Part shown: one piece after another, positions 7,301-62,494 of the stretch
How positions within the stretch are numbered: the first letter of the stretch is position 1
Layout of the letters: every line of letters starts with the position of its first letter
Assembly: GCA_030248065.1 (NCBI GenBank)
Contig: JASAMV010001041.1
Span: 116,537-180,536 of the forward strand
Length of the DNA: 64,000 bases
From: Rhynchonema sp. JSB1_4
Lineage: Eukaryota > Nematoda > Chromadorea > Monhysterida > Xyalidae
Direction: 5' to 3'
Translations under genes and position numbers: made by a program
Notes under the pieces: generated by a model
Seen by the model: only the letters and a program-made list of their open reading frames with translations
Told to the model about the DNA's origin: nothing
The model's database searches: none

Positions 7301-8324
7301 CTTCTTTTGAAAACTTTTACTGGCTTATTGAAGTTCTCATTTCATATTTATAGTGGCAGATTGAGCCATCTGGTGGCGAAAAACGCTGTTTCGCTACCTT
7401 TTCTCACAACGGGACTCTGCACGGCTCGACGCGATTCGGTCACATCATACGCATCACCGTCGGCACTGATCTCTACCTCGAGATCCTGGTCTGAGTCGAA
7501 TGGCGGTATCGGCGTCAACTCAGGTGGGGGACTGCGTGGCAGACTGAAGTACGTGTGGTCCGACCATCTGCAAACAGAACCGCAATACAAATAGGTGCAC
7601 GAGCAAGCAGGCAAGACACTCAAAATTGTGAAAAAATGGATCAACGAACGCACCTCAATTCGTTATAGTACTGCAACGACTGTTTGACGGCCTCGAGTTT
7701 GCCGTCGTCGGTGTCATTGAACACGAAATCATCGCACGAATAACTGCAAACAACAATTAGGGGGCCAGTTCGTTATTTATCGATCCTGCTCGTACTCGGT
7801 CAGGCGGCAGCACGAAATGAAAGCAATAAACCACACTCACCAGAACACCGAATAATTGTGACAGTCCATGCAGATCGAGTGTTCGCGACAGAAATGGAAA
7901 TGTTTCAGACCGTCCTGATGCACGTAGCTGCAACAACGGACATTATGAAGACAAAAGGAACGCATGACCAAAGCAAGGCCTTGATACCAACCGGCCACAG
8001 TGGATGAGTCCGCAATAGAGACACAGCCATGGACTGAGCGATGTGCCGCACTCTGCAAGAAAAGGAAATTATGACAATAAAAACGACAATCACGACATTT
8101 CTGGATGTTTCAATCCAGCACAACTGACCAACACAGTTCCAATTGGTCGGCTCAGTGGTGGTTTCAGCCGAGTTGTTGTGTGTGTGCACGCGTGTCGCTC
8201 GGCTCACGGCCACATGTCTGCCGTCTTTGTGTTTCTCGACGCCGCTTTTCGACACCGACTGCTTGATCAGGTCGATGTCCAATTTCGAAATCCGAACCGA
8301 ATACGCCACATGCGCACAATTCAT
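465..8324 (-). CDS. USP3: Ubiquitin carboxyl-terminal hydrolase 3 (USP3), multi-exon
   Basis: Cysteine protease expected to remove ubiquitin from histones H2A/H2B in the nucleus (family knowledge). Exons read, 5' to 3': 8324-~8208, 8052-7992, 7927-7841, 7743-7654, 7567-7398, 7178-~6995, possibly ~6572-6414, 5763-5339, 5263-5154, 4676-4578, 3850-3676, 3611-~3467, 3240-3124, 2659-2546, 2450-2367, 2296-2124, 1520-1371, 1095-1013, 612-465. The start [10 protein letters not shown] matches the USP3 N-terminus. ZnF-UBP follows ([28 protein letters not shown]). A long Ser/Thr/Gly-rich linker precedes the Cys box [18 protein letters not shown] with catalytic Cys, then QQQDAHEF, the CxxC pair of the zinc finger (CLDC, CSRC), VLCLHLKRF and the His box TSGHYTAYA ending at HFND. 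Joins such as CGR|YVHQ and HHGSG|VTSGHY restore the family sequence. Uncertain: exon 1 end, exons 6-7, and the 3611/3240 junction phase. The linker is longer than in vertebrate USP3. Confidence 0.93.
834..905. repeat. Perfect 19-bp-arm palindrome between 13-bp direct repeats
   Basis: In the last USP3 intron. Bases 847-865 and 871-889 are perfect inverted repeats (core TTTATTGCGTCGGCA) with the 5-bp loop CCAAA. The insert is flanked by ACCAAATGCAATG at 834-846 and 893-905, an exact 13-bp direct repeat. This looks like a minimal foldback insertion with target duplication, or a templated insertion, since the loop repeats part of the flank (CCAAATG). Confidence 0.85.
1135..1322. repeat. Repeat terminus plus long poly-C tract
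   Basis: Bases 1138-1158 (GGGTGATATTTTCGAAAC) match the end of the foldback repeat at 46,281. They are followed by a C-rich stretch of about 70 bp (from about 1245) that is nearly pure C. It lies in the USP3 intron between exons 1520-1371 and 1095-1013. The C run may have an unreliable length in the assembly. Confidence 0.7.
1558..1976. mobile_element. hAT-type MITE, 419 bp, TSD ATCACAAG
   Basis: Terminal inverted repeats CAGTGGTGTCGTT and AACGACACCACTG with perfect 8-bp direct repeats ATCACAAG at 1550-1557 and 1977-1984. An 8-bp TSD and CAGNGGTG-type termini are the hAT signature. No transposase ORF; the body is rich in GGGTATGGGAAAT-like units. It sits in a USP3 intron (2123-1521). Confidence 0.9.
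2843..3116. repeat. Probable diverged MITE, one terminus visible
   Basis: CAGTGGTGTCGTG at 2843 matches the terminus of the 1558-1976 element. The following sequence is repeat-like (GGTATCCGACACCGG), but I could not find the matching far end. It lies within a USP3 intron. Confidence 0.4.
4082..4402. mobile_element. MITE of the same TIR family, 321 bp
   Basis: Starts CAGTGGTGTCGTT and ends AGCGACACCACTG, the same terminal inverted repeats as the 1558-1976 element. No clear target duplication in the flanks. Internal sequence unrelated in length and content; no coding capacity. USP3 intron. Confidence 0.7.
4980..5135. repeat. AAAAAACCG / CGGTTTTTT repeat fragment
   Basis: Alternating poly-A, CCCGGG and poly-T runs resembling the larger 36,614-37,039 element and fragments at 37,680-37,860 and 38,270-38,330. 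In a USP3 intron. Confidence 0.5.
8101..8118. other. Small hairpin with the GATGTTTC motif as loop
   Basis: CTGGAT and ATCCAG are perfect 6-bp arms around GTTTCA, so the motif GGATGTTTCA (9 of 10 match to the window's iterated decamer) spans one arm and the loop. It lies in the first intron of USP3, about 50 bp upstream of exon 2. Confidence 0.5.
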
Positions 8325-8635
8325 TGTCGAAAGTCGACTTCACTTTATTCGATATTGATGGATTTCCTCTGGGGTCGTCCTCGTCCGTCAACGAAGCCGA
8401 AATCTCGAATCGAATGACTTCCGTTTTTCAGTCTCAGTCTCCGGCTTAGGCTGCGGCCTACTTTTCAACTCAGACTTCCCGGCCCGATATTGCCCAAAAT
8501 ATTATAAAACTCGTGGTTTTTTTTATTAAAAACCGCAAACCGCGGTTTTCGCAAGAATTTGGCACTGGATTTGGTCTTATTTGCAATTTTTAGTTTGCAG
8601 CGGTCAATTTTGTGTCAAAAACCTTGCTTCTCTGA

Positions 8636-9099
8636 CAGTGTAGTACTTGGTCAGGGTGTTGACGATAGATAGATTGGGACCCGAAATGTGTTGACGATAG
8701 ATAGATGACCCAAGTCCGAAATCTGGGGGGGGTCGACCCAAACTTGTTGACGATAGATAGATGGTGGGGGGTCGCCAAAAATCAAGGTATAGTATAGTGT
8801 ACTAAGTTGGTAATAATGTGTAAATATTACTGAAAATGTACTTAGATGCACTAAATCCGCGCGTAGCGCGCGATTTTTTGCCCATTTGAGACAAAAAATA
8901 CCGATTTTGAGCCATTTTGAGGCAAAAATACTCATTTTGGGGTCGAAATGTGTTGACGATAGATAGATTGTTCCCAGAATTTGTTGACGATAGATAGATT
9001 TGCCCATAAGTGTTGACGATAGATAGATGAAATCTAAAAGTGTTGACGATAGATAGTTGAATTTGGGGGGGGGGAACCCACCCCCCAAGTACTACCCTG
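8636..9099. mobile_element. hAT-type MITE copy A with GATAGATAGAT units, 464 bp
   Basis: Left terminus CAGTGTAGTACTTGG, right terminus CCAAGTACTACCCTG, flanked by a perfect 8-bp duplication TTCTCTGA (8628-8635 and 9100-9107). Inside are two clusters of TTGACGATAGATAGAT units (three at 8658-8762, four or more at 8948-9055) and a GCGCGTAGCGCGCG palindrome near 8860. About 95% identical by eye to copy B. No transposase. Confidence 0.9.
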
Positions 9100-9135
9100 T
9101 TCTCTGAACAAACCAAAACGTCATCAGAAAATTGG

Positions 9136-9690
9136 TCAAAAAAATCGTGCCGGGCCGGGCTGGCCAAACCCAGCCCGATTGACAGCTCTACAAGCATGCA
9201 AACGCAAAAGCGGAACAAAAACCCGTGCCACGTGCGGTGCCGGTGCGCTGTGTAGTTCCTGGAAGGGTCCCTCCTCGGGTACGTCTGTTCCCCCTCCACG
9301 GTACGCCTGCCCCTCTGTTCCCCTTCCGGCCCCGCCCCGGGTACGTCTGCTCCCTCAATTTTTGCCTGAAATAGGCAAGTTTTGGCCTTAAACAGGCATT
9401 TTTAGGAGGCGTAAAATGAGTGATTTTTAGGTCAATGTTGTCAAAAATCGCCAAAATACCCCTCTTATATTGAGATTTTTTTCCAAAAAGGGGCAAAATC
9501 GCCTTCAAAAAATGACTTTTCTCCAAATCTGGGTCCTCCCCCTTCCCCCACCCCCAAGTGGGTACGTCACGTCTATTCTCCCTCCGAAAAAGGGGGTACC
9601 GCCTGTTCCCCCTCCGGACTCCGGACCAGTGCTGTGGCTGGGACCTGGGAGGGGGAAGGGGGTCCTGCAGTGTAGTTCCTGGGGGGTCCC
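9136..9690. repeat. Repeat nest: GGGCCGGGC segment and CAGTGTAGTTCCTGG-type elements
   Basis: Bases 9148-9178 carry the GGGCCGGGCTGG motif also found at 13,375-13,500 and 38,350-38,840. From 9250 on, sequences match the TGTAGTTCCTGG / GGTACGTCTGTTCCCCCTCC family (see 11,976-12,381). Elements are nested and I could not separate their ends. Confidence 0.6.
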
Positions 9691-10020
9691 CCCAGTGTTG
9701 GAGGTGGGGGGGGGGTTTTGGGGTGGGGGTAGCCCCCCCAGTACAGTAGGTATCCCCCTCGCCTGGTACAGTAGGTATCCCCCCCCCCGATGTTTGGCAT
9801 GGTACACTAGGTATCCCCTCCCCCCCGATTTTCACCCCGGCACAGTAGGTATCCCCCCCCCGATATTGCCCCAAAAGTGCCAATTTTTGACCAAAATGGC
9901 CAAAATTAGTGCAAAATCAGTGGTTTTTACCTCAAATTACCCGAAATTCAATACTACGTTTTCACACGATTCCACACATAATAAACACATAAAAAATTTT
10001 CACCCCAAAACCTAACCCCC
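9691..10020. repeat. C-rich repeat module, inverted copy at 11,494-11,830
   Basis: Begins CAGTGTTGGAGGTGGGGGG and contains repeated GTACAGTAGGTATCCCC units, then sequence ending in AAACCTAACCCCC. The same sequence occurs in reverse orientation at 11,494-11,830. The copies differ mainly in homopolymer length; the second contains an extra GCGCGTAGCGCGC palindrome. Confidence 0.75.
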
Positions 10021-10082
10021 AACCCCCAAACCCCTCCTAGCAGGTACATAACCCCCCAGGCCATCAGCTCTGGTACAGTAGG

Positions 10083-10553: not shown

Positions 10554-10578
10554 ACAGTAGGTATCCCCCTCTCCGAGC

Positions 10579-11014
10579 CAGTGTAGTGGCAGGCAAATGG
10601 TTGCAAGGTACCCTTGGGGGGGGGGATGGATCCAGATGGTTGCAAGGTACCCCCCTACCCAGCCTCCGGGAGGTTGCAAGGTACCCCTGAGGTCCGAAAA
10701 AGGGTGTTTTTTTCATGCATTATACTGCAAATTTGGCCGAAAAATTGGTACTTTTTTGCATTTTGGCCGAAAATTTGCCTAAAATACCTATTATATGGAG
10801 GTTTGCGCGCGGAGCGCGCGATTTTTGGGGTTTTGAGGTCGAAAAACACCCATTTTTGCCTATAAAAACCATAAATTGATGGTTGCAAGGTACCCTCCGG
10901 GGTGGTTGCAAGGTACCTACCCTTCCCCCCCCCCATCCCCCCCCCAAGGGGTGGTTGCAAGGTACCTACTCCTTGGCCCCCCCCCCCCCATCCCCCCCCC
11001 CAGCCACTACACTG
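10579..11014. mobile_element. hAT-type MITE, 436 bp, TSD CTCCGAGC
   Basis: Termini CAGTGTAGTGGC and GCCACTACACTG; perfect 8-bp duplication CTCCGAGC at 10,571-10,578 and 11,015-11,022. The body has repeated GGTTGCAAGGTACC units at both ends and a GCGCGGAGCGCGCG palindrome at about 10,805. A second, inverted copy lies at 63,569-63,949. No coding capacity. Confidence 0.93.
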
Positions 11015-11022
11015 CTCCGAGC

Positions 11023-15666: not shown

Positions 15667-18600
15667 TCAAGTGACATTATTGATATCGTTAGTGTCTTTA
15701 GTGTCGGTGTTGGGCAGGTAGTTGCACGCGTCCCTGTGCGTTGTTTCGTGCTCTTCCGTCACCGAGTTGTGTGCATGTTGTTGTCCGCCGTCGTCTCCAC
15801 CCAGTCCCATCTCAACATCGGCTGCCGGCTTGTCCTCTTCGTCCCCCTCTTGTGGTTGATGGTCATCGAACGCCAGTCGCAAATCGTAGTACGTACCCGC
15901 CTGTGCACCGGCTGATGTTTCACACATCGTGCTGGTCGTCTCGTCCGTCTCCATCGCAAACACACCACCATTCGTGTCGTCATTGTTGTTGTTGTTATGA
16001 CCCGGCTGTGAAACATCACCCGTTAGGCAGTCAACGTTGATCGGCGGGTGTTCGCGTTTCGGCACGGCGATCAGGCACGAATCGACGTTCTCGCCTGAAG
16101 TATAAAGGCACAGTCATCAATAGTCACTCAGCAGTTAGGTACAATGACCAACGCACCAATAGCGCGTTTCGCGGCATAAATGCACTCAATGTCGGGATCA
16201 TGACGTGCCAGCTGTGAGGCGGTGTCGAGCAGGGACTGGAGCAGCAATGGGGACACTGCGTGACCAACACTGTTCACGGCCACTGACAGGGCACGCAGAC
16301 ACACCAGACGCACGTTGCGGATGGCTGCAAATACAGAGGGCCTGCTTGTTCAAGGCATGAAAAATGCAAGAAGCAAAACACAAAATTAAAAAGATGGAAA
16401 CTGACGATCTTTGGCCAACGCGAGCAGCGACGGCAACATCGTATCACAGAAATGCTGTTCGGACATGGAATGATGTTTCAACACTTGTTCGCACACGTAC
16501 GCATAACTGGAATGGGAATGGTGCAATGCAAAGTATGATACCACAGCAACGTTCGAAAATCGTGTGAAACCCAACAACGTGATAGGTTCTCTTTTTTACT
16601 TTGACAGTGATTACCGCATTGAACTAGGAGTCGATGGAATGAAAGTGGCCCACTCACGTTTGTCTGCGCGACCATCGCTGCGACTTTGCGAATCCCTTGA
16701 CGATGTCCTGCACGAACTTGTCGGTCGTCTCGAACTGGTCGACGGCCGGTGTCGGTCGACTGCTTTCAACACGATAGAACGACGCCAAGATCGTCGCCAG
16801 CAACACACCCGCACTTTGACGAATCTGGGCCACTCGGTCTGAAATTGGCATTGCAATCATTCACTGCACAACACGCCTGAATATTCGATAAAAATTCGAA
16901 CGCGTTCATACCAATAGCTAAAGTGAGGCCGATCGCAGACAGATAGAGGTTGATATCGTTCATTTCATATAGTTCGCATAGTAAGGTGCATTGACTGCAA
17001 GAAGCACAATAAAATTATGAGATAAAATCGGCAATTAAAACAAAGACCAGCGAAACCGACTGAGCAAATTCATCCCTGAATCGCCAGTTGCGCAGATTGT
17101 CGCACTGTAGGAAGTCGGCAAACTGCGACAGAAGACAGATTCGACGCGACTCGTTCAACAACTGCAAGGAAGAAAAATTGAGATCAAAAAATGGTGTCAG
17201 TCATTTCACAAACTGAAACAAACAAACAAACAAACCAATGAATGATAATTTGAGCTACGCAAACGCACCTTCACAAAATCGTACAAATGTTTGAGTATGC
17301 CTATCCGAACTTCGTCCAAATCGCGCATGAATCCCTGGAACACCGGCAACAAGTCCTTGATGGTCAACTCCGGGCCGAGGATGGCGGCCAGTTCGTGAAT
17401 GCTGAACGCCAGCGTACGTCGCACTTTCCACTGTAACGACGACATACACACATGGCGGTGCGCAGGATGCAGACAACGGGCACGATAACAAACCTGCAGA
17501 TCATTGGCGAGTGTGATGTAGGTGGGTTTGAGCTGATGCCAATGTTGTCTGCCCAACGTGTAGGCGACAGCGGGCATGTTGAATGCACAGTGTCTGCCCA
17601 TGTCCGTGTCCAACACCTGTGCTTTGTGAGGGTCGACCATCGATACAAAATACTCGAGCAGTTTGGCCGGCACGATGTTCTGCAAATGAGATGGATAACA
17701 TTGAATAAAATTAAAGAACAACAGGATCAAACCGCTGTACAACCTGATCAGCTTGAGTGGTTGCATTCGTGCTGTCATCATCCGCGGACTGGTGCTCTTC
17801 ACTCTCACTCAACTGCAATGTCTGTTGTTGCTGTTGGTCGTGGTCTGAGCCCGAAGTCCGCGTCTGCGACTGGCCGCCGGTCGATTTGCGCACATTGAAC
17901 ACAAACGGGCCGTCATCGTCTTCTTCAGAGTCCGAGTCTGACCCCGGCTGAAACATCACAACATTCGCACATTGTGATTGATTGTGCTCGTCTAAGTCCG
18001 AGTGCTGCGTGAGTGGACGTCTATTGGTTGCGGGCGGAGTCGCAGTGCTGTTATTGGCTGCAATTGCTCGGTCGACGGCCGCACGACGCGCTGATTGGTC
18101 GGACATCGACACCGGCGGATTGCTGCAACAAACAATGGACGCATGTGAATTCAGACGACAAGCCAGATGAGGCTTCAGGTCACTAACACTCAACGCAGCT
18201 GAAGTTGAACACAAACTGAGTCCAACAACAGTTGGAAAGAATGTGAGGTTCCGATGTTAAGTCCACCATTTAGAGGTCCCGTGAAACATAACCATACGTA
18301 AGCGGTGGGGGCAAAACAGGAGCCAAACTAGAGCCAAACTACATATATCATGCTTTTTCTCTGCCGAGCGTGAGAAAAACGGCCAGAAATCCAGCACGAT
18401 GTCAAACACCACTGTCAATTACATATATCAAGTGAAACATCCTCAATCGACATTGAGCAACCCGAACGATCAACAATGTTGGAAGACTGAACAATTGTAT
18501 ATTGGACTACATGCACCCCCCAATACAAAACATCGTCCATCCAAGCCAGCTATGTACACACCTGAACCTCCTTTCCATGAAGTGTTGCACATCGGGGTCA

Positions 18601-21600
18601 TCCGCAGTGGGACTAGTGACCAGATTGGCATTGGCCGTCGACGACTCGGACACGGGAGATTGCCAGAATTGGAACGCCGTGAATCCGATCATGTCGTTGT
18701 CGCAAGGCTCTGCAATACTAATTGGCTGCACACCAAACAGTTATACTCTGGCAATTCTTTTGGGAGAAACTTTTCAACCGTGTTGCCTGATCCGTAAAGC
18801 CCATTGTGCGTGCACTGGCTATGGAAGTCACGTGACCGCTATAGCCAGTGCACGCATCATGCGCTTTACGGATCAGGCAACGCGTTTGAAAAGTTTCTCC
18901 CAAAAGAATTGTCAGAGTATATCTAGATCATAGCTTCCGTGGTTCGGCTTTATTGGTGACCCGCTAACAGTGCACCAAAAATTGAAAGCTATGATCAATA
19001 ACAAAAACCACCAACCATTATCACCCAAGTCCAATTGATTGGGTTTGTGGCGCGTCTGTTCCACGGTGTGCACCATGTCCGGTGAAACATCACTGCGCTG
19101 ACTGTCCTCCAACTGCAATGACTGCATGAGATCGTTGAACGTTTCGTTGATGCGCTCATTCTCGCGCTGTCTCTCCGTCTCCGTCTTCGTGTCGGCCGCC
19201 GACGCATCAGTCGATTTCTGCGCCGACTCCGCTGATGTTTCATTGTCACTGCTGTTGTCGCTTGATGAAGATAGGAGGCCATCGTCCAACAGGCCACCGA
19301 GCTCCGTCATTTCCCTTCAATAAAAACAACAACAAACTGTAAAAAGCTCTTCTCATTCCAGTGGTGTCGTTGGGTATCTGGCACTCGAAAATTTTGGAGC
19401 TCTGGTACTTGGTATCCTGAATTCGTTATTTCCCGACACGACACCTATTGCCTAGCCTGACGCACTTGAGTCAAACCAGCGCGTCAGGCCACTTTTTCTG
19501 AACATACATAAGCTATGCGTACTGTTGGTGACTGAAAAAATAGAATCACAAAAAATCGGAACGCACTCGCTCTCCGACACCAATCGTTTACGAGAACCGG
19601 GACTGGACGGAGCAGCCAGCGCCGGCAGCTCGGGGACGACAAGGCCTGATGGTAATTGCACTTGTAGAGGTTGTTGCGTGGCGCTGGACTCGGCCGCATC
19701 GCTGAAACATTAGAATTGGGAACGATCAATGCAAGTTACCGTAATTCAGACAGAATACGGACTAAGATTTGGGACAAGCAGAAAATACCATTCGGCAGTG
19801 GCGGATCCAGGTTTCGCCCAAGGGGGAGCAAATTCTAAAAGTCATTTTGCCTAGTGCATGTTTGATTTTTCAAAAATGGTTTTTATCCAGTGCTTGCTTC
19901 AAAAATGGTTTTTATTCCGTGCTTGTTTATAATTGGACAATCTTAAACCAAATACTGCACAAAGTAAAGGCATGCGCGCGTACCGCGCGAAAATGTTGCA
20001 CATTGTACGCGCGCGACAGCCAATGGAAATGGGTGTGTCTGAGGCGCGAAGCGCGCGATTTTTGGACCTTTGAAGCGTATGAGAGTGAAAATCCTGCGAT
20101 TTGGCGGTCCTTTTTCCTTCTTTTCTCCGAAATGGTGGCCATCTTTAGGGGCCCAGGCCCCTGGATCTGCTAGTGCCATTCTGACTCCCATTGTGCGGTC
20201 GCTAGTAGTCACCAAGTTATCGTTCACACAAAATTGTCTCTGGCAGCACAGTCAATTTGCTGCGCGAATGAAGTCAAACATATATACTTCGAGCTGACTG
20301 CTTTCATCACGTAACAAAACTGTTCACATATCCGGTACGCAACTCACGGTTGGTTGTAGGTCAATGTGCCGTCATGGTCATAGCGCAGTCCGGTGCGTTG
20401 CGAGTCGGCGAACGTGGCGATGAACGGACCGAGTGTTTGGAAGGACTGATTGGTGACCCAACGCGACGAATCGCCCAGCAGACTGACGAACACCGGTGCC
20501 AGGTACTGACGACGCGTAGACATCGAACACTCTTTCGATACCTGGCTCGGCCAATAGTTGGTTTAGTCTTGGTCTCCAGTTTCGTATGTACGTGATAACG
20601 AAGATGACGCCGGAGTGGCCAGCCTTCGGACTTGTGCTTGTCTTGCTGCACAGCATTTTGGTGCACTCGAATGTTTCAAGCACGTTTCACATTCAGTTAC
20701 TTTCTTCAAAGAATTACAAGCAGAACGAGTCACGTGCTCCACCCAACAATGTATACCTGAGTGTAGCTCTCTGCACAACATTTTCTCACGCCCCACACCG
20801 AATCGTGACTGAGCGCTATGAGATGAGGCACGAGCACGTTTTCGGTCACGTATGGGCCAAGAATCGTCGCCAGTTCGCCAAGTGCCGACGCGCAGATCTG
20901 ACAGCAGCATAATTGATTTTTGTTTCGCTTTTTTGTTAAATTTTGTAATAAAAATTTAAAAACACGACCAACCTTTCTGACGTGAAACACACTGTCGGCA
21001 CAGAGTTTGGTGTAGGCGGGTAGAAACGTCGATAATGTCCATTGTTGCTCTAATTGTGACGAGGTGACGAATTTACACAGTAGCTGAAACAAGAAAAACT
21101 CGTGCAGTTTCGATTCCGAGCAGAAAATATGAAAATTGAAATATGCACGATGAAAATGGAAATATTGGAATATCATAGCAGAATTCCGACTCTGAATTGT
21201 CTGGCGAGCTTTGTATCACCTGGATAATCGAATGCAATGTTTCGCCTACAAGGCAGGATACAAGAACAGTGACAATGAGCGCGCAACGCGTTTGAATGTG
21301 AAAAGAACAATGAAAGTTGAAAACGGATTAATTTTCATGAAAAAACCGCCAGTTAAAAAATACAATAAAGCAAGAAAGACAACGCATGCCGACAAGCTGA
21401 AACACAGAAGATAAACAAAACCGGAAAAGAAAGCGTGCAAGTGAAGGTGGTGACTTACCCGAAAAGATGGCTGGGGCGTGGCGATTGAAAAAAGGTCAAT
21501 AACTTAACCCGACAGTAGAGCAGCAGCACAGAAGAATAGAGTGCACGTGAAGCACATCAAAGCTGGCTGTGATATGAGCATGTCACCGTATCAGATCGAC

Positions 21601-30600: not shown

Positions 30601-33600
30601 ACTCGTTTTTATCACGCGCGGCGATGGACAGAGCGTACAACCAGGTTACACCGGCAGCAGCACATGGCCGTCATAAAACGCGCAACAACGACGACGACCG
30701 GCAGGCAGACAACAACTGGTTCAGCAACCAAAGATTTTGCATGACAATTTGCCCATGTGAACCTGCGACACAACATCAGACGATTCTATTCGACATGTCC
30801 GTTGATGCGAAAATTCTTCGAATGGCTTTGCAGCTCACGAATAAAGGAAGTGGCCATAAACATCCACCTAAAATACCAGCTCAGAGGCAGGCGCACTGTC
30901 TGGTTTAGTCCTACACCGACGTTGCTCAAGGGCGCAGAGCAATACGAGCGAACATCATCAGCCAGCCTACCTGAGAGAAGGTGACTAGGCTGACAGTGAC
31001 ATCTGGTAGAGTATCCACACCCAACAACCTGGTACTATACGTGTGTTCGTTGCTTGTCCAACTGTTTAGCACACGCGATGCGCATACATGCATGGTTTTC
31101 TCTTTCTTTTCATTTGTAATTACATAAACCCAATTTGTTTCCACGTGGCAGACATCGAAAGCCGTGAGCGAGCTGTCTGGGGAGAGACACGTCGTCCACG
31201 CCCAGGCAAAAGATGGTGATCAATGTGCCACTTGATGACAACGAAATGAACAAACGCACTGCGACAATGTGCCCCATTTCGAACAGCTTGGAAGTGAATC
31301 AAGTGAAGGTGTTGTCTTAGCTTGAGCACGGTGGGTAACACTGTAGCAGCAAGCCAACGGAACTGCCAGTCTGTTGGTGGCTGTACGGTACTACGATTTA
31401 TCCCTTATGCCACGCTCACTGCAAAAATGAAACGATGATAATGTTGGGTGGCCGTCGAAAACCCCGAAAACGAAAAACCCCGAAAAAAACCCGAAAAATA
31501 AAAAAATGTCAGGGATGAAAAAAATTCTTCCTAGAGGTGGGCATTCATTTAGCTCGTGGCCCACGAGTGAAACATCACCCGTACACTTGACAAATTGGTT
31601 TCGGATCAGACTTGAACATAGGCTTGGGCTCTGCTTGTTCATAGGCTAGGCTGCCAGCCAGGAAGACATGTCCATATGAAAGAAACATCCACAAAAACCT
31701 AACTGCTCAGGCTTTCTTTCGGGGTTAGGCTTAGGCTTAGGCTGCCAGCCAGGAAGACCTGTCCGTTTGAAGAAAACTTCCGCAAAAACCTAACTGCTCA
31801 AGCTTTCTTTCAGGATTAGGCTTTGACTTAGGCTGCCAGCCGGGAAGACCTGGCCACATGAAGGCAACATCCACAAAAGTTTGAAGGAATAGGCCTTTTC
31901 CAAGTTAGGCTTAGGCTTAGGCTGCCAGCCAGGAAGACATGGCCAAAGGAGACTTATCTGAACTTGAGCCCGAACTGTACCAGTACCCATTTTTCGGTGC
32001 AAGAGCTACATGAATACCCTTCTCTTAGAAAAAGAAGTGTTTTCCACACATTTTATATTTTTCGGGGTTTTCCGTTTTCGGGGTTTTTCGTTTTCGGGGT
32101 TTTTCCTAGGGCCCCGACCAGACCCGAAAGTGATTGGTGGCAACAAAACGCAAACTGCCTATAATCAATTTCCGGACAAAACCCGCTGAGTGTGTTTACC
32201 TCAAGCAACACACTTTTTGACGTTAACGGCGGCAAGAAACCAAGTCTTTACGACAGGCAGTCCAGTCACACATACCTTCTTGATGCCCTCCGAAATAATT
32301 CGCCTAATCGCATTCCTAACCTGACTATTGGTGTCCAAGAGAAAGTTGGGCAAGATTGGGGTGAGCGAGTCGTGTACGTGATGCGACAACATTGGGTTCT
32401 GTGCACAATGCAGACACAGAATCGGCAGTTGTTCGAGCAGGTCGGCTCGGATTAGCGGGTCTGCAAATTATGACCAGGTAATCGCTGCTGACACATTGCG
32501 GCGCCTACGTTACCTACATATGTATAATGTTGCCTTGATTGAAGGATAACCATAGCATAGGTGAGCAAAAACCCCCAAATGGATGGTTGAATACAGACCA
32601 TGTTCAATTGAAACTCTCTGAACGGTAAGCCAACAGATAAAGCATGCTGGTAAGAAAGTTCAAATGTAATCCACACGATAGGGTGGAGAGTTTATCGGAA
32701 AACATAAAGACCAATTATGTGCCATTCTTAATTAACCGCAGTGTCTTTTCTCCACACCATCATTGTGGCGAGAACGAAGCGCATAATTCTTGCCTACATT
32801 TGTATGGTACATTACCTTCATCAACAGCGAATCGATTTCGAATCAGGTCAAATATGGCGGTCGATGCGACCGGGTCGTGTTCAACCGACTGCAACGCCTT
32901 GAGCGTGTGACGCACGGCCACCTGTCTGAAAAACAATCGCTGCGCGTCAATTTTTACAAAAATGTAAAGGCAAACTACACCAACACGAGCTTGATTTCGG
33001 ATCTGCCAGAATAGTGAAACATTCATACGTGGCTGCTGATTCGGGAAATGTTACGCGTTGAAGAACACAAAACGGAGCATGATCATTTTCTCTTTCTTTT
33101 CGTTTGAATACACACCACCTTCGTTGGTGTAGTTTCCCTTGTATGTGTCATCATATCCACGCAACGCAAACCAAACGTTTAAGTGACTTCATAAGGCTTG
33201 CAACATGCTTCAGATTTGCTATTTTATGCATGTGGCAGAGGCAGGCAGATGATTAACACAAACTCGTGATGTCTGCTAAATACCCAATAATTGTCCCACC
33301 GTTCAGCAACATTGTTCGACATGCCATAACGTTGCAGACACGCGTCCAACGTGTTGGGTACTTGTGTGGCGACGGGCGCATCGGTCTCGTTGTCCATGTT
33401 CTCAACATCACCCGAACCCGAACTCGGTGAATCGGGCGTATCTGCAAATGTGAATCTCGATTTGCGCACAAACTATGTGGATGAACTTTTTGGACTCACA
33501 GTTTTGCGTGTGTTATAATCACAGCATGTGTCGCCCTGGCCCAGTTGTTATCACACAGAGAAAATTGAGAACATAAAATGAAAAACAGAATCCCCGGTTC

Positions 33601-39969: not shown

Positions 39970-40000
<31 letters not shown>

Positions 40001-43650: not shown

Positions 43651-43916
43651 AACAAATAAAACATCTTCCCACCACCAGTCTATTCAATGTTTCAGTGGCT
43701 GGTGGTGGTTTCACGCAACCGCAACCGACCACTGAAATGCTGCGCGAGAGTGTGAGTCGCAGTTTTCGAGCTGAGGGCAGGCCACCAGCTGAAACATCAC
43801 CGGGCCAGCAGCAACAGCCGGCAGCTGCGAGCGACAGCGAACCAGAATTGCCACAGAAACCACCGACATTTTGATTGATTGATTATTGCGATTGTCGATA
43901 ATTCACGATACACTCA

Positions 43917-45169: not shown

Positions 45170-47897
45170 TTATGTTTGGTCATTGTTTAGTGCTGATTCG
45201 GTCTTCTCCGGACCGCCGCCAATTGACAATTCCATGAATTCATCCTGCAAACTTTTGTACGTCTTCTTTTTTTCGGTGGTCGTCTTTTTATCGGGGTCGG
45301 GAACGTACACGTAGTGAGTTTCGCCTAAATATTCAATCACAATTAGTTTGACATGGGTATATTTCGGGCAAAATGATCAGTCCTTCAAACCTTTCACTTC
45401 CGGGACTTTTATTTTTCGTTCGTCACTTTCGCTGCCGAGCGTTCTTTCGTCTTCGATTTTTGTTCCCCTTCGATATTGGCCGTCAATTGCCTGGCTCCTG
45501 AAGCATACAGCTGATTTGGTTTTGGTCGCTTGTACAATGCATAATTATCCTTATCCGGATGATGTTTCACCTGGTTGCAACCAAATAGATGACCACCGCT
45601 GTCAACACGAGCAGCAGGACGAGCTGCAGTGCGTTGCAAGCGATCAGCGCGAACACCAGGATTGAACTAGATGGAGTCTTTCGGTTTGCAGTTTCGTCCG
45701 GGATACCTGGGGATGCAGAAAACAGTTCTGCATGCAAGTTAGGAAACATTATAAAGCTATAACACACTAGGATCTCTACTTTAGTTCCAATTCGAACACC
45801 ATCGTTCACTAACATTCCGTTGGCCATTGTATGCTCCATTGCGGGTCGTGACCGAGTTGGAGCCAGGTGCAGTCGTGTTGGCACAGATACTCGATGCGGT
45901 AGTGATCGGTGAGAAAGGCATGCAGTCGATTGACGGGCTGGGCCAGTCCCAGCACCGGATGCACACTCGACAGTGTCGTCCCGTTCCATTTGTAGCCGTT
46001 GGCGCATGAAACATCGGCCAGATCGAGCACAGGGCTGTGGTTGAGCATTGAGGTTAATTGATGGAAACGGTAGGTGACGATGGTGTTGGATGGAAGGTTG
46101 GCTGGTGGACGGGGGCATGCTGCAACGATGCATTGGTTGTTTCCATATTAAAGACTATGAATAAATGTTCTATCGTTGTTCGATTGGGATATGCGCATAC
46201 TGTTGGAAAGGAATCTGTTGATGTTGTCCAGCACTGTCTGAATACCATGATGTTCTGCTAACAACTGCCAAGCGACACATTGGGTGATATTTTCGAAACT
46301 GTGTGAAGGTCAGTTGGGCGTAAAGGTCGGTGTAAAGTTCGGTCGAAAGCTCGGTCGGCGTAGCTCGGTGTAAACGTGAAACATTTCCTGTTATTAATGT
46401 GGAATGTTTCAAGTTTACACCGAGGTCTATCACACTGAGCTGTCGACCGAGCTTTCCACCGACCTTTACGCCCAACTGACCTTTACACCGTTTCGAAAAT
46501 TCCACCCATTGTGTGATTTCTATGCATCAACCAACCAGTGACGCATTGGCGAGCCTGCTGAGCCGATTGCCAGACGCCATTAACGCACTGGAATCTCTGG
46601 ACGGGATATCCCTCTGTGCCATAGATGTACCCCGTTGGATTGGTGCACTGGAAATCATGTTCATCATTGTTGGGACTGTAGTCGCCTTCGGGTTCGAGTC
46701 GGTACCATTCTGAATAGCTGGCCGACGGCACGCTGATCGGTCGGTAGCAGACTGCGGCGAAATCAAGGCGGTTACGCAAGATGAGTGGAATGGAGAGAAT
46801 TCTCGTCGCAATCTTGCAAGGACTGACCTTCCGTGATTGCACTGCATGGGCCATCACACACCCCACATTGCTTCAGGGGATCGGGATCGCTCTTGTTGCA
46901 AAAGTCCGCCGGCTCCGTACCCTTTCTGTCTTTGGTGGTGCCTAATTTCCAACCACACATAACAGGATGTGATGTGTAGTAGAACTTGCACTGAGTGGCA
47001 TCAGAGCTCTGTAGACATCGAGAGTTGAAGTTGTCGAGATCTGCAACCAAGAACGTAGACACTCGTGGGAGGGCTGTTGGCCGTGTGATATTTTGGCTGG
47101 GAATCTTTTTGGTGTCATGTGGCACGTGCGTGAAATGTGTTGTGCGTACATATATTTTTATGTTTTTGCAGAGGCTCGGCTAGCTGATGTTTCACAGTCG
47201 TTGAGATCATATTTAACCTATATAATATGTGACGGCATATTTTGCGGCAGACGTGCCTCAGTCTCGTACATTGTTGTCCCTATCGACCCTTACGAACGAA
47301 ATAGAATCATTCTCACCGAGCAAAATTCGGTAGTATTGGCACGAAAAATCCCCATTTGTATCGGTGTACTCGTAAGCGGTCGGCCCTTGTCCCCCATGCG
47401 ATCCAGGGACTAGGTAGCACTTGTGTTGGACTTGATTGAATATAATGCCGCAACATACGGTGTCGTTCAAACAAAGGGACTGGCATGTGTGCAGGTCTAC
47501 TGTTGACACGTCACCAGTTGTGGGGCAGTTGACATTTCTCCGCACCAAATTGTTTTTGTGCACATAGTCACCAAGGTATTCCATGCTTTCGTTGAAAATG
47601 AATTGTTGATTCTTCGGAATGGACTTTCCTCCTGAAAGTTGTTATAATTGTTGATGGATTTGGTCTCCCAGTTTATAAATTCCACTTCCACTGCATAGCC
47701 AACTGATGCATTATACGGCTGAAACATCAGCTAGCTAACAATTGCGCAAATGTGTAGCGTGAATCTTGACGGGGTGTGTTTCTGTAGTCATCGCTAAGCA
47801 AATCCCAAAACATACCGTAGTCTATCCAGCCTGCATTGATGGCGACTACGCTCATCAGCAATGGGAGAAGAAATCGCTGTTTTCTGTCGTCGTGCAT
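45170..47897 (-). CDS. PAN/sushi-domain single-pass membrane protein
   Basis: Probable cell-surface protein. Exons read, 5' to 3': 47897-47816 (signal peptide, MHDDRKQRFLLPLLMSVVAI), a poorly resolved part at 47.72-47.64 kb, ~47,620-47,310 (PAN/apple-like: LHTCQSLCLNDTVCCGIIF, CYLVPG), ~47,040-46,830 (Cys-rich, CGVCDGPCSAI), ~46,760-46,503 (sushi-like: DFQCTNPTGYIYG, FQCVNGVWQ), ~46,124-45,812 (second sushi-like: SCANGYKWNG, YLCQHDCTWLQ), 45706-45571 (transmembrane: ILVFALIACNALQLVLLLVL), 45497-45390 and 45324-45170 (acidic/Lys-rich cytoplasmic tail ending TESALNNDQT). The intron 45570-45498 begins GTGAAACATC; removing it restores the frame. The order signal peptide - PAN - sushi - TM - tail supports a receptor-like product. 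Ligand unknown. The first two junctions are not solved. Confidence 0.7.
46281..46508. repeat. Foldback repeat with long arms in a PAN/sushi-gene intron
   Basis: The left arm GGGTGATATTTTCGAAAC ... GTGTAAACGTGAAACATT is followed, after a short loop (TCCTGTTATTAATGTGG), by its reverse complement AATGTTTCAAGTTTACACCGAG ... GTTTCGAAAATTCCACCC. Arms are about 105 bp with a few mismatches and length differences. The terminus is shared with 1,138-1,158. Confidence 0.85.
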
Positions 47898-48533: not shown

Positions 48534-51500
48534 CTGTTTATCATCCGGATTTATAGTGAGCACCGTAACAAACATGCCTTTCGGCACCGGCTCCCTGCTA
48601 GAGACGGGCGGCTGTTGATCATCAGGTTTGTTTGCCTGATCCTCCAAGGGATAGATGGGTTTGGGTGGTTCCCTGCTTCTGCAAGGAAGTGACGAAGCGG
48701 TCGTGGTTGAGGTACGACTCCTCGATGTGCCCTGAGGAGGCAGGCAGGCCTCTGAGTAGGCCGGAGGGGGACTGACGTGCAGATGATCTGCTGATCGACT
48801 GGTCCGATCACGGTTACGGTAATCGGCCTCAGACGTGTCGTAGCTGGGCGGCAGACGCACGTGACGCAGCTCGTCGATGAATCTGCAACGTCGCCGCACG
48901 AGAATCAAGACTGCGGTTCTACGTTTCAAAATTCGCTCGTTATAATGGGCTGTTTTCTGACAACCTTTGTTATTAAATTCTGATTCGTACACAGGATAGC
49001 ACCAACCTTGGTGTTTTTTTTGAATTAATTGTTCGAGATGTACTGAGGCCTCACTTTGTAATTTTGGCCAGCATAAAAAAGTTGTTCTTCAGCAGCTTGG
49101 AACTTGGCGCGATCAGTAAATCTCGAATTATCCTTGATGCGAAACATCACGCGACCGATCACCAGGTTTGGTTTGACGCGCGAACCCGAGTCACCGACCT
49201 GTGCAAGAACGTCTGGCTGTAGAGCCAAGTGTCCCAGTCACTCTGTGCGCTTGTGCCACGCGCCATTGTGCCACTGGTGAATCGCAGCTTGGCTCTGTAC
49301 CACAGTTGGTAGTAGAACAGGATACTGACGATGCACACAAACACGGCCACTGAATGCACGGCCACCGTGACTATCTGCCAGTGGTAGAGCTTGTCGAGCG
49401 ACTCGCATGACGACACGCCTTCGAACACGTACCAACCCGTCTCTGAAACATCATATGGCTGCGCCTGGGCAGTTGTAGATTCATGGGTGTCTATCCGGTT
49501 TGGAGCTTGCCGACAGGAAGCACGAGATGCGTTGTGCGGTATGCGGTCTTTTGGCTGTCCGTTTCGACTTGGTTTCACACATTTCACAGTGTGGTGATGC
49601 GCCAGGTCATCATCAGTGCTAATGCACCAAATAACCAAAGGACACGCACTATACATAGCTATACCATTATGTAATGCTTCCATAAAACAACGCTAAACGA
49701 TGTTCAGGCTACACACAGATCTGGAGACGGAAGAGCGCGTGGTGCACCGCTGGTCGAGACAATGACTCACCGGATCGTGTGGCATTGTTCCTACGGCACG
49801 CACACCGCAACATTCGCCCGTTGAACACACAAATGTTGTATCGTTCCTGTTTATCTGCCAGCCAACACGAGCTGACGATCGCCACCACAAGCAGAACGGT
49901 GGCAATACCTAGACAGGGAATCGGGTGAATTTTTGACAGAAACAATGCCTAACCTAAAATGGTGTGTGGGCGGGGATGGTTTGCTCACCATAAATGGCGC
50001 CAGCGAACTTGATGGCCGTTTTGTGTTGACGAAATGAGGCCCGGTTGAAGAGCAGCATCACACCACCACACAGCAGTAGCTGGAAATTGAGGCGTATGAG
50101 GTTGGGATCATGCTGGATCTATTTATATTGACATTGAAACATCAACCAGACTTCAGAAAGAAAGCATCAGCTGTGTAATGGAGATGAAGCTGACTGGTGT
50201 TGCACAGCCCACACAATGCGCACTATCATCGCTTCTCATGTTTCGAGGTTGATCCCCAGATACAGTACCTACAGTATTATGCGTCACAATCTCGTGTTCC
50301 CACACACAAACAAATACACGCACAATCTTTTCTCCATTTACTGCACTCTAAATCAATTCATGTACACTTATATGTTCGGTCGTCGTGTCATTCCGTTAAT
50401 CGATTTACGCAAAGCGAACACTGGTTGCACTCCAAACCGCAGTCCCAATATTGAAATTGTGACCAGATAATGCCATTTGTCGAGCGTTCAATTATCACCA
50501 GACGTGCAAAAAAGAGAAACCAGCGAAATGGCAATTGGGCACTATGTTCTATACCTACTTTTGAGTTTCCGTAATTCCAATTTGCCAGGAAAGTCCTGTC
50601 CTTGAAATAATATGCGCGCGTTTATTTCCACCCGTGAAACATATATCATGGTAGATGTCTTGATAATAAACCGGGATCAGTAACATCGTTGCCAAAAATG
50701 TTATGATGAAGTTGTCTTGTTCTGCACACAACAATATTGAAATGTTCGGCCGCCGACAACAACACGCCCCCCCCCCCCCCGATGTGTAACACGTTAAGAT
50801 CAAAAAATCCTGTTTTTCACTTCGCACAAAGATGCGCTCACACGGTTGTTGTATGCATAGTATCGCGCGGATTTCCCTTTTTGCCAAAAACGTGCTGCGT
50901 ATGCGAATTTTATAGTGTAAGTTTTTGTAATGATCTGTATCTTTGTTTTGTGTCTTACTCCTGGATGATTGTGGCCAACGCGGTTATAAGGTACCACAAA
51001 GCTAAAGTACACAAGAGCAAATGGACAATCTAAGATTATGAGGCTCCATAACCTGAGGATTTCTTTGTGAACGCATCAAACTTTCATTAATACTTGTGAG
51101 ATGGGCATTTTTTTCCTAAACAGATTTTTGCAAATTATAAAAATTAGTGCATGATGTAGCGCATTATGAAAATAATAATTTCCTTTCGCACGTTTTGTAT
51201 GTTAGTAAACCAGCCATATTAACTGCACAACAGCCGAAAAATGAATTGTTACGTAAGAGAGAAAAGAAGTGCATCAGTCAACTTCATCACGAATCGCCCT
51301 GAAAAGATACAAACTTGCACACGGCTCACACATTAATTGTTTGTTGCACGTACACACACAGGTGCGGCATATTACATATCTTGACAAACCAAGTTACTGT
51401 TTTTTTCATAGGTTGGGAAAAAAGTAACTCATTTTATAAGAGGTTTCATGGTGCCGTGGTGTTCTGCACAATATGAAGCTTAGCGCTGTCGCCAAACATA

Positions 51501-52550
51501 CTGGAAGTACAACCAGTGTTTGCAACCAAAACACGCAACTGCAGGTTGCTCCCCCGCAAAGCGATGATAACAAAAAGCAGAAAACGGAGAGAAAAACCGG
51601 TTCTACCGCTTATTTCAATCGGTTTGTGTGACCCAGTGAAGAAGGAAGTGCGCAGCACAGCGTGGCCAAAAAGTGACACCGCGGTGCGCGTAAAGTTACA
51701 GATAATGTTAGCTGCTTTATAATGAATTTTTGGACCACGTTGTGAACGCAATAAGTCTCTGCTGCAAAGAAAACCACGCGGCACTATTATACGTGTACAT
51801 CGTCGGCTGCTTGCTTTGTGTCGTGATTTATTTTGGAAAACGACAAATTTGCTCGTGTACAAAAACTCGTTTGACCTGCCAACATGGCATGGTGTATGTA
51901 CCTGAATGCACGTGACGGTACCGGGGTGAGTGAGACATGGAATTTCAATGCAAAGAAAATTTAGGGCTTTTGCCTGTCTTAACGATCGATAATGACGCTC
52001 ATGAGAAGATCCGTTGGCATGGCATGACATCACACGTGCACTACTGATACTGACGCAGAAAATATGAGCAAACTGTATCTAATGTATAGCAGTAGACCAG
52101 GTATTCTCTGTTTGTGAAACATCAATCAACAATTAAACACAGCGCAAGCAAAAACGATGTCATTCAGGCATAAGAAACCAGCACTCACACGTATGGATCA
52201 ACTCCAAAAGTTCAAGCCAGTTTCTGAAAGAAAGTCTTCACCTGCAAGGCCACAATGTAGCAGGGTACGGCTTCGAACTTTTCGGTCGACAGCGTAATCC
52301 TCCGCATCATGATGTAGATCCAAACAATCGATGATGTCAATATGACGAAGCAGGTGGCCAATGGGATCGGTAACAGACCGACACTCAACCGAATGTATCC
52401 ATCTGGGCACGTGCGACTGCGATCTGGAGCTGTAACCGTGCCAGAACCGGGACTCGGAGGAGACACATGACTGGCACTTTCTGCCATCGCCGATCTCGAT
52501 GGTGCAGCCCGTCGCTCCTCAGTGCTGTGGTGTGACAGTCCACTGATCAT
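48534..52550 (-). CDS. TMEM255-like four-span membrane protein with PPxY tail
   Basis: Exons (approximate), 5' to 3': 52550-~52254, ~50,120-49,990, ~49,925-49,770, ~49,451-49,200, possibly 49,200-49,040, 48,882-48,534. Hydrophobic segments: LSVGLLPIPLATCFVILTSS, LIRLNFQLLLCGGVMLLF, CLGIATVLLVVAIVSSCWLA and VTVAVHSVAVFVCIVSILFY. Before the last one, VSSCESLDKLYHW closely resembles the Cys-containing VSSCQDIIHLYH element of vertebrate TMEM255A/B, which also have four spans and a PPxY-rich tail. The tail here carries PPSY and PPAY, expected to bind WW domains such as those of NEDD4-type ligases (family knowledge). The start ATG lies directly after a TGAAACATCA copy. Exon order is inferred; the junctions at 50.1 and 49.2 kb are unsure. 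Confidence 0.62.
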
Positions 52551-52562
52551 ATTGATGTTTCA

Positions 52563-59460: not shown

Positions 59461-61248
59461 TCAGTTTGTGCGTATTAACAGAATTGAGGCCAGCGCAAGG
59501 ATCCCATAATTCGATTTGGTTTGGGCGCAGACTTGAACCAAGTCAGGTTGTTGTGCTACTGTTTCAACGGTGGTGTTTTCGGTCGTTGATATCTCGTACT
59601 TTGGTTTCAATTTTGTGTGGCTCTTGATCCAGTCCGTGAAGTGATGAACCTTTGGAATTTTAAACTTGCACGAACTATACTTTCTTGCCATCCCATTATG
59701 CTCTATACTCACGTGCTAACGATCACTTGGTTCAAACATTATGTATTTGGACCACTCGTTCCTCAAATGTAGCAAAAATCATGCATCCTAACCTTTGCGT
59801 AGTACGATGTGCCGTGAAAACAGTTAGTTTTGGTGCCGTATGACACAAGACCATGTAGTACCCAATGTTTGTCTTCTAGGCACATCACCGGGCCACCCGA
59901 GTCGCCCTGATTGAAAAAGGTGAGTTATACATAGTTCACATATTCCCACAAACGTGATCGTCGCGAACGTTGCACGTGTTTGATGGCGGGTCACCATGAC
60001 GTGACGAACAGAATTCCCTCGTTGTCCTCATACCCATCAGTCCTTTGAGTTTGTACTCAGCCTCAGCAAAACACCGACTGTTGTCAGCAATGGTCAACAT
60101 GGCCTGTCGCAATGGGCCTTGGTACTGCACTGGATGGCCATCTGCAACAATTGCCATAATCAGGCAATGACTTTTGTCAACTTGTGGCTGTGAGATTAAT
60201 TGACTTTGTCGAAACATCAGCGATAAAACGTGATGGTCGATGACCATAATGACAGAGTGTATAAACAGCAGGGTTGCAATTGCCATACCTTTCCAAATGT
60301 TGCCCCATCCTGATACGTAACAGTTCGTGTTGGGCTTGACTGGTCTGTTGGGCAGGCAAATTGGTCGGATATGGTTCGTGAATTGGATTGCATCGTCGAA
60401 CACCAGCACTGAAACATCACAATGTCGATAGTCGAATCGAATTTCAGCGCAAGTCAGTGAAACAAGAGTGCTTGGTGGCCAACATGCAACGTCGTCCGTC
60501 ACAAAGTCCTTGTGATATGCGTAAATGATGATTTTATTGGGATGGAGCGCCACGGGTCGGGTGGTGGTGTTGAATACAGGCTTGGAATCGTGCAAACCAA
60601 CGTAGACATCGACGTGCTCGGGAATCAGTGATTGATTCAGGTACAACCACCAAATCGAGCTGAATGAATCAATAAGTCGATGAATTAATCAATCAAGAAC
60701 CACCAACTTACACACAATGCGCTGCCGTGATCACGTGATGTCGATCAATGATTGATCCCCCACAATATCCCAAACTCAACCGCTCCCCCGTGTCTGGATG
60801 CACATAATGATGATTCACAGTCAGCAACACTTGCCATGGCCAGCTGTGAGCAATTGCCGGCCGTCCGTCTGAGTGAAAACCGATGAATCTCATCGAACTT
60901 GACACAAAGAAAGCGAAGAAAAAGTGCGCCAACAGTGAACCACAAACTCACACACGATCAATCCTTCGCCCTCAACGTCGGAGCGGGGCGGGTGTTTGAT
61001 TTCGTCAATGTAGTCCGGGTTGCTCAGTCCAGAAATATCCGGCTCGACTTTGGGATTGCCACACAGTCGTTCTGAACTCGGTGTCAGCGCATGTAGCATG
61101 TACATAGCAATTATCAAGCGCACGTATAAATTTAAGTATTTACAAATTGACTTCCAGAGCCCCCAAAAAACGAACCTCTACTTTGCTTTGCCGGTCTCAC
61201 GCCGGTCGCGAGCAATAATACAAACGTCACCAGGATCGAGGTTTCCAT
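59461..61248 (-). CDS. Trypsin-like (S1) serine protease, probably membrane-anchored
   Basis: Exons read, 5' to 3': 61248-61176 (signal peptide METSILVTFVLLLATG), ~61,075-60,955 (pro-region with a Cys), ~60,893-60,713, ~60,660-60,486, 60409-60292, ~60,140-59,945, ~59,908-59,794, ~59,712-59,461. Catalytic His in SIIDRHHVITAAHC, Asp in DDVA|LLVFDDAIQF, Ser in GDSGGPV, so the full triad is present. IRPICLP and CYVSGWG are also conserved. The intron before LVFDD ends exactly at TGATGTTTCAG (60,420-60,410), shown by the trypsin consensus and by the same intron position in the plus-strand paralogue. After the domain (FKIPKVHHFTDWIKSH) comes a Thr-rich stem and a hydrophobic end (GILALASILLI) typical of a GPI or membrane anchor. 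Activation site is unclear (R|FIG-like). Confidence 0.88.
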
Positions 61249-61586
61249 GTCGGGTTGATGATTATAATTACTGTACAGTCGAAGTAAAAAAGACCAGTCC
61301 AAAAAGTAAAAAGCCAGCATTTTATGCAGCATATATTGTGTACGATAGTGAAAATCATTTTTTACACTGACTCCAATGTCCAAAAATTCTGCCTCATCTT
61401 TCCATAATCATACACTCACTACTGACCGCCATGCAACAAACCTGTTCCGTGCTGTTGGTGGGTATCGGCATCGGGCTGTGCAGGAACAACAAACGAAACA
61501 CCAGAGATTCAGGTTGCTTTTTCATTTAAAAAGTTCAGTGAGAGAAATTTCCTTCAAGATAATAATTTAAAAAATAAAGATTTGCA

Positions 61587-62494
61587 GAGCTTAAATGCGG
61601 CGTGCCGCCCATTCAACCGGAAGTGTCTTTCGATGGTCCGACGAACACAAGTTATCATGGTATCAAAATATTTGTTGCCTACGTCTAGAAACGCTAAAAT
61701 GTCAACAATTTTCGAAATACTTCTTAATGTATCTGTTTGTCAGGTATCGACGAAGCAGTGGCGCACAGCCATCCGTGGCATGTGGCCATTTGGACCGTCG
61801 ATCGATACGTGCAAGATTACAAATGGGTTTGCGATGGCGCCATCATCGGACCACATCATGTGATCACTTCGGCGCACTGCCTGTCAGTTGGTGTATTGAG
61901 CATGACCAAGCCCTCGGGATTTCCAAAGCTTTCATCTGTCCTGCAGCGAAACAATCGCGTAATTATCAGTGGTTGCTATGCTTCAGTGCGCACTGGTGGC
62001 TGTTGCACGATGTGAGTCTGGTGTCGAGTCAAGTTAATGTCTGGGTCGGTGGTCACGATGCGTACAACGCAAATGAAACATCGATTGTGCTCCGTCCGGT
62101 CAGGTTCTACATTCACGAACGATACGACGAGTTCGCGGGCAAATTCGATAAAACCAACAAGTTCACCAACGATATTGCGGGTCAGTCGACCTTGCTCGAA
62201 CCAAACGTAACGTTTGAATATACGTTTGAGTTTTCGGATCAGTGCGAATCATGCACAAAGTTAGGAAATGTAATGAGATCCGTAGATCATCCACCTGTAT
62301 TCCATCTGCACGGACATTGTGCTACGTTTCTTTGAAAAAGCGGGGAAGGTCTAGGTTGCGGCATTACTTTTCAGTGCTCATATTTGACAAAGCAATCGAA
62401 TTCAATGCACACGTGCACCCAGTGTGTTTGCCGGAGGCACCCATCGTAGAAGGAACCCCTCACAACTGTGTCACCGCTGGATGGCCACGTTCGG
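61587..62494 (+). CDS. S1 serine protease paralogue, catalytic Ser exon not found (partial)
   Basis: Divergent to the minus-strand protease. Exons read: 61587-~61,659 (LKCGVPPIQPEVS), ~61,745-61,889 (SHPWHVAIW ... GPHHVITSAHC with catalytic His), ~62,005-62,177 (VNVWVGGHDAYNANETS ... NKFTNDIA with catalytic Asp), 62374-62494 (VLIFDKAIEF, VHPVCLPEAP, CVTAGWPRSG before GTAAGG). No signal peptide exon was identified and no GDSGGP-like stretch is visible from 62.5 to 64 kb, which is filled with repeats. Either the last exons lie beyond the window or the gene is broken. TGAAACATCG at 62,074 encodes part of NETSI. Confidence 0.78.

Follow-up and report, generated by a model that had tools for sequence, protein, structure and literature searches.

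The window, a stretch of 64,000 nucleotides from the nematode Rhynchonema sp. JSB1_4 (assembly GCA_030248065.1, contig JASAMV010001041.1, positions 116,537 to 180,536 of the forward strand), carries many copies of one ten-base word, the decamer TGATGTTTCA and its reverse complement TGAAACATCA. Exact counting gives 16 copies against 0.44 expected from shuffled sequence (at most 4 among 100 shuffles), with TGAAACATCA on the plus strand ten times and on the minus strand six times, and agrees in number, position and use of both strands with an earlier examination of this DNA from its letters alone (the sequence-only reading). The decamer is a real, genome-wide and exact DNA signal. Its copies in the window, with the strand on which TGATGTTTCA reads, are the following:

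15913..15922, plus strand: exact decamer, in the open frame 15667-16113 (minus), read as ETS
16009..16018, minus strand: exact decamer, in the open frame 15667-16113 (minus), read as DVS
16471..16480, plus strand: exact decamer
17949..17958, minus strand: exact decamer, in the open frame 17711-18256 (minus), read as MFQ
19083..19092, minus strand: exact decamer, in the open frame 18912-19316 (minus), read as DVS
19233..19242, plus strand: exact decamer, in the open frame 18912-19316 (minus), read as ETS
31568..31577, minus strand: exact decamer
43790..43799, minus strand: exact decamer, in the open frame 43512-43874 (plus), read as ETS
45560..45569, plus strand: exact decamer, overlapping the TGA stop of the open frame 45567-46154 (minus)
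47185..47194, plus strand: exact decamer
47720..47729, minus strand: exact decamer
49444..49453, minus strand: exact decamer, in the open frame 49159-49692 (minus), read as DVS
50122..50127, minus strand: TATA box (TATAAA), 7 nt downstream of the decamer at 50135-50144
50135..50144, minus strand: exact decamer of the TATA-bearing class (decamer-N7-TATA match at C648:166658-166680)
52115..52124, minus strand: exact decamer
52553..52562, plus strand: exact decamer
60410..60419, minus strand: exact decamer in a frame with a trypsin domain; its DVS is aligned with the Asp of the relatives that we take to be catalytic, ungapped against NDIA of enteropeptidase

Sites with at most one mismatch number 35 in the window against 9.0 expected. 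The 19 one-mismatch copies among them, of which the sequence-only reading had noticed at least nine, carry little weight, chance alone accounting for about half. The gaps it described also hold: no exact decamer lies at 8.4-13.4 kb, and the near-absence it reported at 20-31 kb corresponds to a stretch between 19.3 and 31.5 kb free of exact copies.

When the search is extended to the whole genome (203.9 Mb in 5,747 contigs, the window being part of contig C648), the exact word is found 37,556 times, equally on the two strands (18,727 + 18,829), or once per 5.4 kb, whereas the same word read backwards occurs 345 times (173 + 172). A 264-kb sample, consisting of the window and 20 pieces of 10 kb picked blind to their content (four of them on the window's contig), holds 56 exact copies against 1.8 expected from a third-order Markov model, the largest excess of any 10-mer in the sample, and the decamer occupies 33 of its 76 four-kb bins, again the most of any. 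Depending on the baseline, the excess is about 27- to 109-fold, so that the comparison with Markov expectation proposed in the sequence-only reading comes out far above chance. The 30 one-mismatch variants together account for 64 copies in this sample (2.1 each) against about 39 expected. The most excessive are G to A at position 2 (8 against 1.2) and A to G at position 10 (6 against 1.4), followed by the first T changed to A, C or G (5, 5 and 3 against 1.0-1.4) and C to A at position 9 (3 against 0.8). If gain and loss of the word are balanced, its roughly 26-fold lead over the average one-mismatch neighbour would correspond to scaled selection with a strength of about 3 at each site. Among the matches listed from the open-licence PMC literature, no paper on such a genome-wide motif was found by title or abstract. 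The decamer is a rare case among animals in which a DNA word is numerous and exact enough that protein-coding sequence must be constrained by it.

The relation to coding sequence was assessed by scoring codon usage, with 28 long frames from that sample as the training set and the decamer itself masked. By this measure coding-like sequence contains 47% of 78 copies, compared with 25% of 6,000 random positions and 26% of 1,853 neighbouring positions; the statement that copies lie mainly in exons holds as a tendency, with about half of them outside coding-like sequence. In the 32 of 78 copies with an open coding-like frame the decamer is read as DVS (15), ETS (7), KH (5) or MF (5), which uses all four stop-free frames and supports the claim of a DNA-level signal beyond protein coding. 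Orientation relative to the inferred coding strand is 20 with and 12 against, and both orientations occur within one frame, which speaks against the suggested splicing element. The copies are clustered (per 5 kb, mean 1.06 and variance 2.13 over 52 bins), so that even spacing is ruled out. No clear asymmetry of coding-like sequence was seen between the upstream and downstream sides of the copies, and a promoter of mRNA genes was rejected on this ground.

Pfam was run on 29 of 175 open segments and on one peptide read by eye, and six matched a family. The decamer lies inside a laminin G domain (L024) and at the edge of the trypsin domain of the window; it lies outside the domain in the segments with EGF (L022), cuticlin C-terminal (L037), zinc knuckle (L004) and endonuclease (L035) matches. 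Exact decamers occur in the zinc-knuckle frame (L004:764-2875, plus) and in a frame for a retroelement-type endonuclease (L035:2-526, minus), and copies are therefore perhaps not limited to host genes. As the trypsin copy aligns without a gap against enteropeptidase, it arose by substitution, and the proposal that the word is the scar of a short mobile sequence is not supported.

The surroundings of the copies agree in only a few bases. Among 78 distinct copies a preference is detectable for C at -5, T at -4, G at -2, C at -1 and C at +10 (0.42-0.55), which can be written CTnGC-TGATGTTTCA-C and fits the upstream regions of small nuclear RNA (snRNA) genes. No conservation was found beyond +10 in 76-78 copies, and flank alignment of 75-78 distinct copies shows nothing shared beyond about 5 nt except for a few local duplications, namely pairs on contigs C3 and C9 and two further copies with near-identical flanks. 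A transposable-element or repeat family, which the sequence-only reading had asked to be checked through common flanks, was rejected, as the flanks are otherwise unrelated.

The likeness to snRNA genes extends to the element upstream of them. Upstream sequence was retrieved for 28 snRNA genes (U2, 8 of 9 matches; U1, 9 of 10; U5, 8 of 8; U6, 3 of 9), with gene starts taken as the starts of the Rfam matches, and removal of nine near-identical regions left 19 distinct ones. In 18 of these, covering U1, U2, U5 and U6, a match to the decamer at 7-10 of 10 letters stands in one orientation and begins at -44 to -48 (-56 for U6). The mean match is 8.47, against 5.2 for the reverse complement, and none of 2,000 random genomic words reached 8.47, whether scored in that band or in whichever of eight bands suited it best. 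The decamer is present in exact form in two of the U1 regions (L064, L067). U1 and one of the U5 regions share the block TTGGC-TTATGTTTCAC-GCGYGAAYGACTACCCC, and related blocks occur in U2, in U6 and in the remaining U5. From its position we infer that this block is the proximal sequence element (PSE), the SNAPc-bound site of snRNA promoters. The exception is a U1 gene (L062) that is devoid of a PSE-like block. The likeness concerns the word and the snRNA element, and the distance to the start is one measured at snRNA genes rather than at the dispersed copies.

The dispersed word differs from this element in having G at position 2, where U1 mostly has T, and in its 37,556 copies. The usual U1 core, TTATGTTTCA, is one base from the decamer and occurs 2,024 times against 1,728 for its reversed form, and is hardly enriched. 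The full element of U1/U5 type was found at ten places genome-wide at three mismatches or fewer, five of which are the regions already known, by a pattern from which the U2, U6 and most U5 elements are too divergent. As the full element occurs at so few places, the dispersed copies are devoid of its downstream half, GAAYGACTACC. Because TTATGTTTCA is scarcely enriched and the full element is rare, the dispersed word is a separate specificity and not a cloud of stray snRNA elements.

A subset of copies is coupled to a TATA box at a fixed distance. The genome holds 407 matches to TGATGTTTCA-N7-TATAWA, where the frequency of TATAWA in the sample predicts 18.4, and all 24 of the 407 that are listed differ in their seven intervening bases. 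With the gap left free from 0 to 30, 1,261 decamer-TATA matches are found; the first 100 listed have gap 7 in 38 cases, gap 9 in 14, gap 11 in 7, gap 8 in 5 and any other gap in at most 4, with gaps 9 and 11 inflated by TATATA runs counted repeatedly on the minus strand. In the sampled sequence TATA starts 7 nt after the decamer at three copies. Judged by eye, the one in the window (50144, minus) lies upstream of a possible exon, one (L019) before a possible intron end and one (L016) within an open frame in which Pfam found nothing. The usual distance from TATA to start would place a start near +45 to +48, in agreement with the start predicted from snRNA spacing. Of 90 four-position windows scored for CA in 75 copies, the one at +44 to +47 ranks first (37 against 24.2, P 0.009). 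This peak is only suggestive of initiation there, because raised CA values had been noticed before the test, though the window itself follows from the snRNA spacing. Type 3 promoters of RNA polymerase III combine PSE and TATA (PMC6004067, in excerpt), and about 400 copies resemble them in pairing a PSE-like word with TATA at fixed spacing; the decamer gap is 7 nt compared with about 15 nt, by eye, in the U6 regions of this genome, and some 99% of decamer copies are without TATAWA at that spacing.

Placing these results together, we incline to the view that the decamer is probably the core sequence of a promoter element that is dedicated, directional and of the SNAPc/PSE type. Such an element would be derived from, or sister to, the PSE upstream of snRNA genes. 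A SNAPc-like complex with changed specificity (G for T at position 2) may bind the copies and recruit TBP and a polymerase, and short transcripts would then begin some 36 nt downstream, on either strand and within genes.

A known system of this kind is the Ruby motif of type I Piwi-interacting RNA (piRNA) genes, or 21U-RNA genes (core CTGTTTCA; PMC9683057, in excerpt). In the parts of the sources used here, more than 15,000 loci of Ruby type are counted in C. elegans (PMC7917550), the motif is derived from the SNAPc motif with an ancestral GTTTC (PMC6436959), its binding complex in C. elegans contacts TBP-1 (PMC11262695), and transcription dependent on it begins two bases ahead of the mature piRNA, with YRNT initiators at SNPC-4-motif loci (PMC6436959). 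The decamer shares with Ruby a short core containing TGTTTCA, very many copies, a dispersed and gene-associated distribution as in P-type species, and a relation to the SNAPc element, the GTTTC-containing core being related to the snRNA element of its own genome. It differs in being longer and in having TATA at fixed spacing in a subset. The statement of the sequence-only reading that no such signal is known in animals is too strong, as Ruby is a short, dispersed, SNAPc-related motif of nematodes (PMC6436959, in excerpt).

The genome also appears to encode a PIWI-type argonaute, a further likeness to the Ruby system. Piwi-domain matches number 54 on 17 contigs. A genome search with a PIWI fragment gave 13 places, of which the best four are of AGO type and C1663, C4595 and C3368 rank fifth to seventh. 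The PIWI-type exon at C1663 and C4595 reads SYDFYLIPQFV.QGTVTPVSYNILCDETQLKPWQQQLWAYKLCHLYYNWQG, and its best solved relative is Drosophila Piwi (E 1.9e-15), compared with 3.5e-4 for argonaute-2. The three related PIWI-type loci (G000:C1663, C3368 and C4595) may be paralogues or haplotypes. A further locus, on C3982, is closest to argonautes 1, 2, 3, 4 and 10, and two argonaute fragments (L085 and L086; G000:C971 and C4966) end in ...NLAKRG and ...NLARRGRD, ends that we take to be typical of nematode WAGO proteins. The exact sequence of spliced leader 1 (SL1) was not found in the genome, which, given the distribution of SL1, argues against Rhabditida. A CAP query yielded no relatives, and a PP4R1 frame was too strongly conserved to place the animal. 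Surveys of nematode Piwi record it only in clade V and in plectids (PMC4323106, PMC6436959, both in excerpt); clades I to IV had none, nor was any detected in the transcriptome of a nematomorph (PMC4323106, in excerpt); the contrast with the present genome is a lead.

Because a PIWI-type argonaute seems to be encoded, the PIWI pathway would be the likeliest user of the element, by analogy with Ruby; that the element makes piRNAs is possible and, to us, doubtful. It can also be speculated, rather more tentatively, that about 37,000 minimal SNAPc-type promoters in exons and introns, under weak selection on ten bases, give rise to short RNAs that follow no 5'-U rule, or else label genes for a PIWI/argonaute system. 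We know of no animal with such a route. If the proposal is right, one genome, in which no exact SL1 occurs, would combine a SNAPc-derived dispersed promoter motif with a PIWI-type argonaute, which would bear on the origin of nematode piRNA transcription and on its replacement.

Several observations weigh against this reading. On the snRNA side, only 2 of 9 U1 regions hold the exact decamer, and two U1 genes (L062 and L066; G000:C5667 and C1907), which share their upstream sequence, have no element; one of the two shares its contig with a U1 gene that does carry a PSE-like block. About 1% of the copies have TATA. Nor does the word stand entirely alone, since after masking of the decamers the shorter cores ATGTTTCA (52 against 21.6) and GATGTTTC (34 against 15.6) are still in excess, and weaker forms therefore exist. 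On the piRNA side, the start signature of 21U-RNAs was not convincing in 77-78 copies: T at +38 to +59 is 0.12-0.32 against a background of 0.27 and is low from +46 to +51, with 0.37-0.38 at +60, and YRNT is not raised from +38 to +56 (1 of 78 each at +43 and +45), while its 13 of 78 against 5.5 at +57 is equalled at +14 and is about the level expected by chance among the positions scanned. The PIWI assignment rests on one 52-residue exon, outranked by four places of AGO type. Intragenic piRNA loci of P. pacificus are 97% intronic (PMC6436959, in excerpt), whereas the decamer shows a twofold preference for coding-like sequence in place of the intron location of P-type species. In these two features, a start signature at fixed downstream distance and location in introns, membership of the Ruby class fails; the reading as a SNAPc-type promoter element stands.

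Other explanations can be held against the same evidence. It is conceivable, though rather unlikely, that SNAPc or a SNAPc-like factor binds the copies mostly without a transcription start, as anchors for chromatin, pausing or chromosome organisation, the roughly 400 TATA-bearing copies being a minor transcribed class. The unconvincing start signature, the rarity of TATA, the clustering, the preference for coding-like DNA and the lack of clear upstream-downstream asymmetry would all fit, but part of the set works in a fixed orientation with a TATA box, as the exact spacing shows, and the CA excess falls at the predicted start. We regard as improbable that an unrelated sequence-specific factor, for meiotic pairing, recombination, replication or another process, uses the word and that its likeness to the PSE is a coincidence. 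Against such a coincidence stand the match in place and orientation of all but one snRNA region, which no random word equalled, the agreement of the flanks and the fixed-spacing TATA, while the main U1 form, one base off and not itself dispersed, and the absent downstream half would be in its favour. The bacterial iterated signals, uptake sequences, Chi and HIP1, the first two of which the sequence-only reading had brought up, resemble the decamer in density (about one per 5 kb), in exactness of the word and in copies within coding frames, and differ from this word of an animal genome with its promoter-element likeness, TATA coupling and clustering. As PSE likeness and fixed-spacing TATA point to transcription initiation, this is favoured over an uptake, Chi or recombination-type role, which may still apply to copies without TATA.

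That a mutational or gene-conversion process creates the word without function is very improbable. Most one-base neighbours are near chance, which would also be expected if neighbours were converted into the word, but PSE likeness and TATA spacing would then go unexplained, and we know of no process that turns one-base neighbours into the decamer. The least credible explanation is that the copies are scars or members of a single short repeat family; a few have indeed been duplicated with their surroundings, as noted above for C3, C9 and the two near-identical flanks, but apart from these the flanks part company within about 5 nt, the listed N7 strings are all different and the trypsin copy is ungapped. 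The promoter-element reading remains the one we prefer.

The window has some further features. A 91-nt tandem repeat of 3.4 copies (31642-31945) is found near the decamer at 31568. Precursors of mir-2 and mir-71, at 21548-21626 (minus) and 22228-22326 (minus), lie about 600 nt apart inside the decamer-free stretch; they are the only Rfam matches of the window above the gathering score, and their mature parts are presumably those of C. elegans. Both precursors, like the cuticlin C-terminal domain, are signs of a nematode. A nest of related repeats occupies 8.6-13.4 kb, 39.0-39.9 kb and 63.3-63.95 kb; it contains GTTGACGATAGATAGAT units, homopolymer runs of G/C and long inverted arms (for instance, 10619-10941 pairs with 63590-63912 at 96%). 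Poly-C tracts lie at 1246-1320 (75 nt) and 39970-39998 (29 nt).

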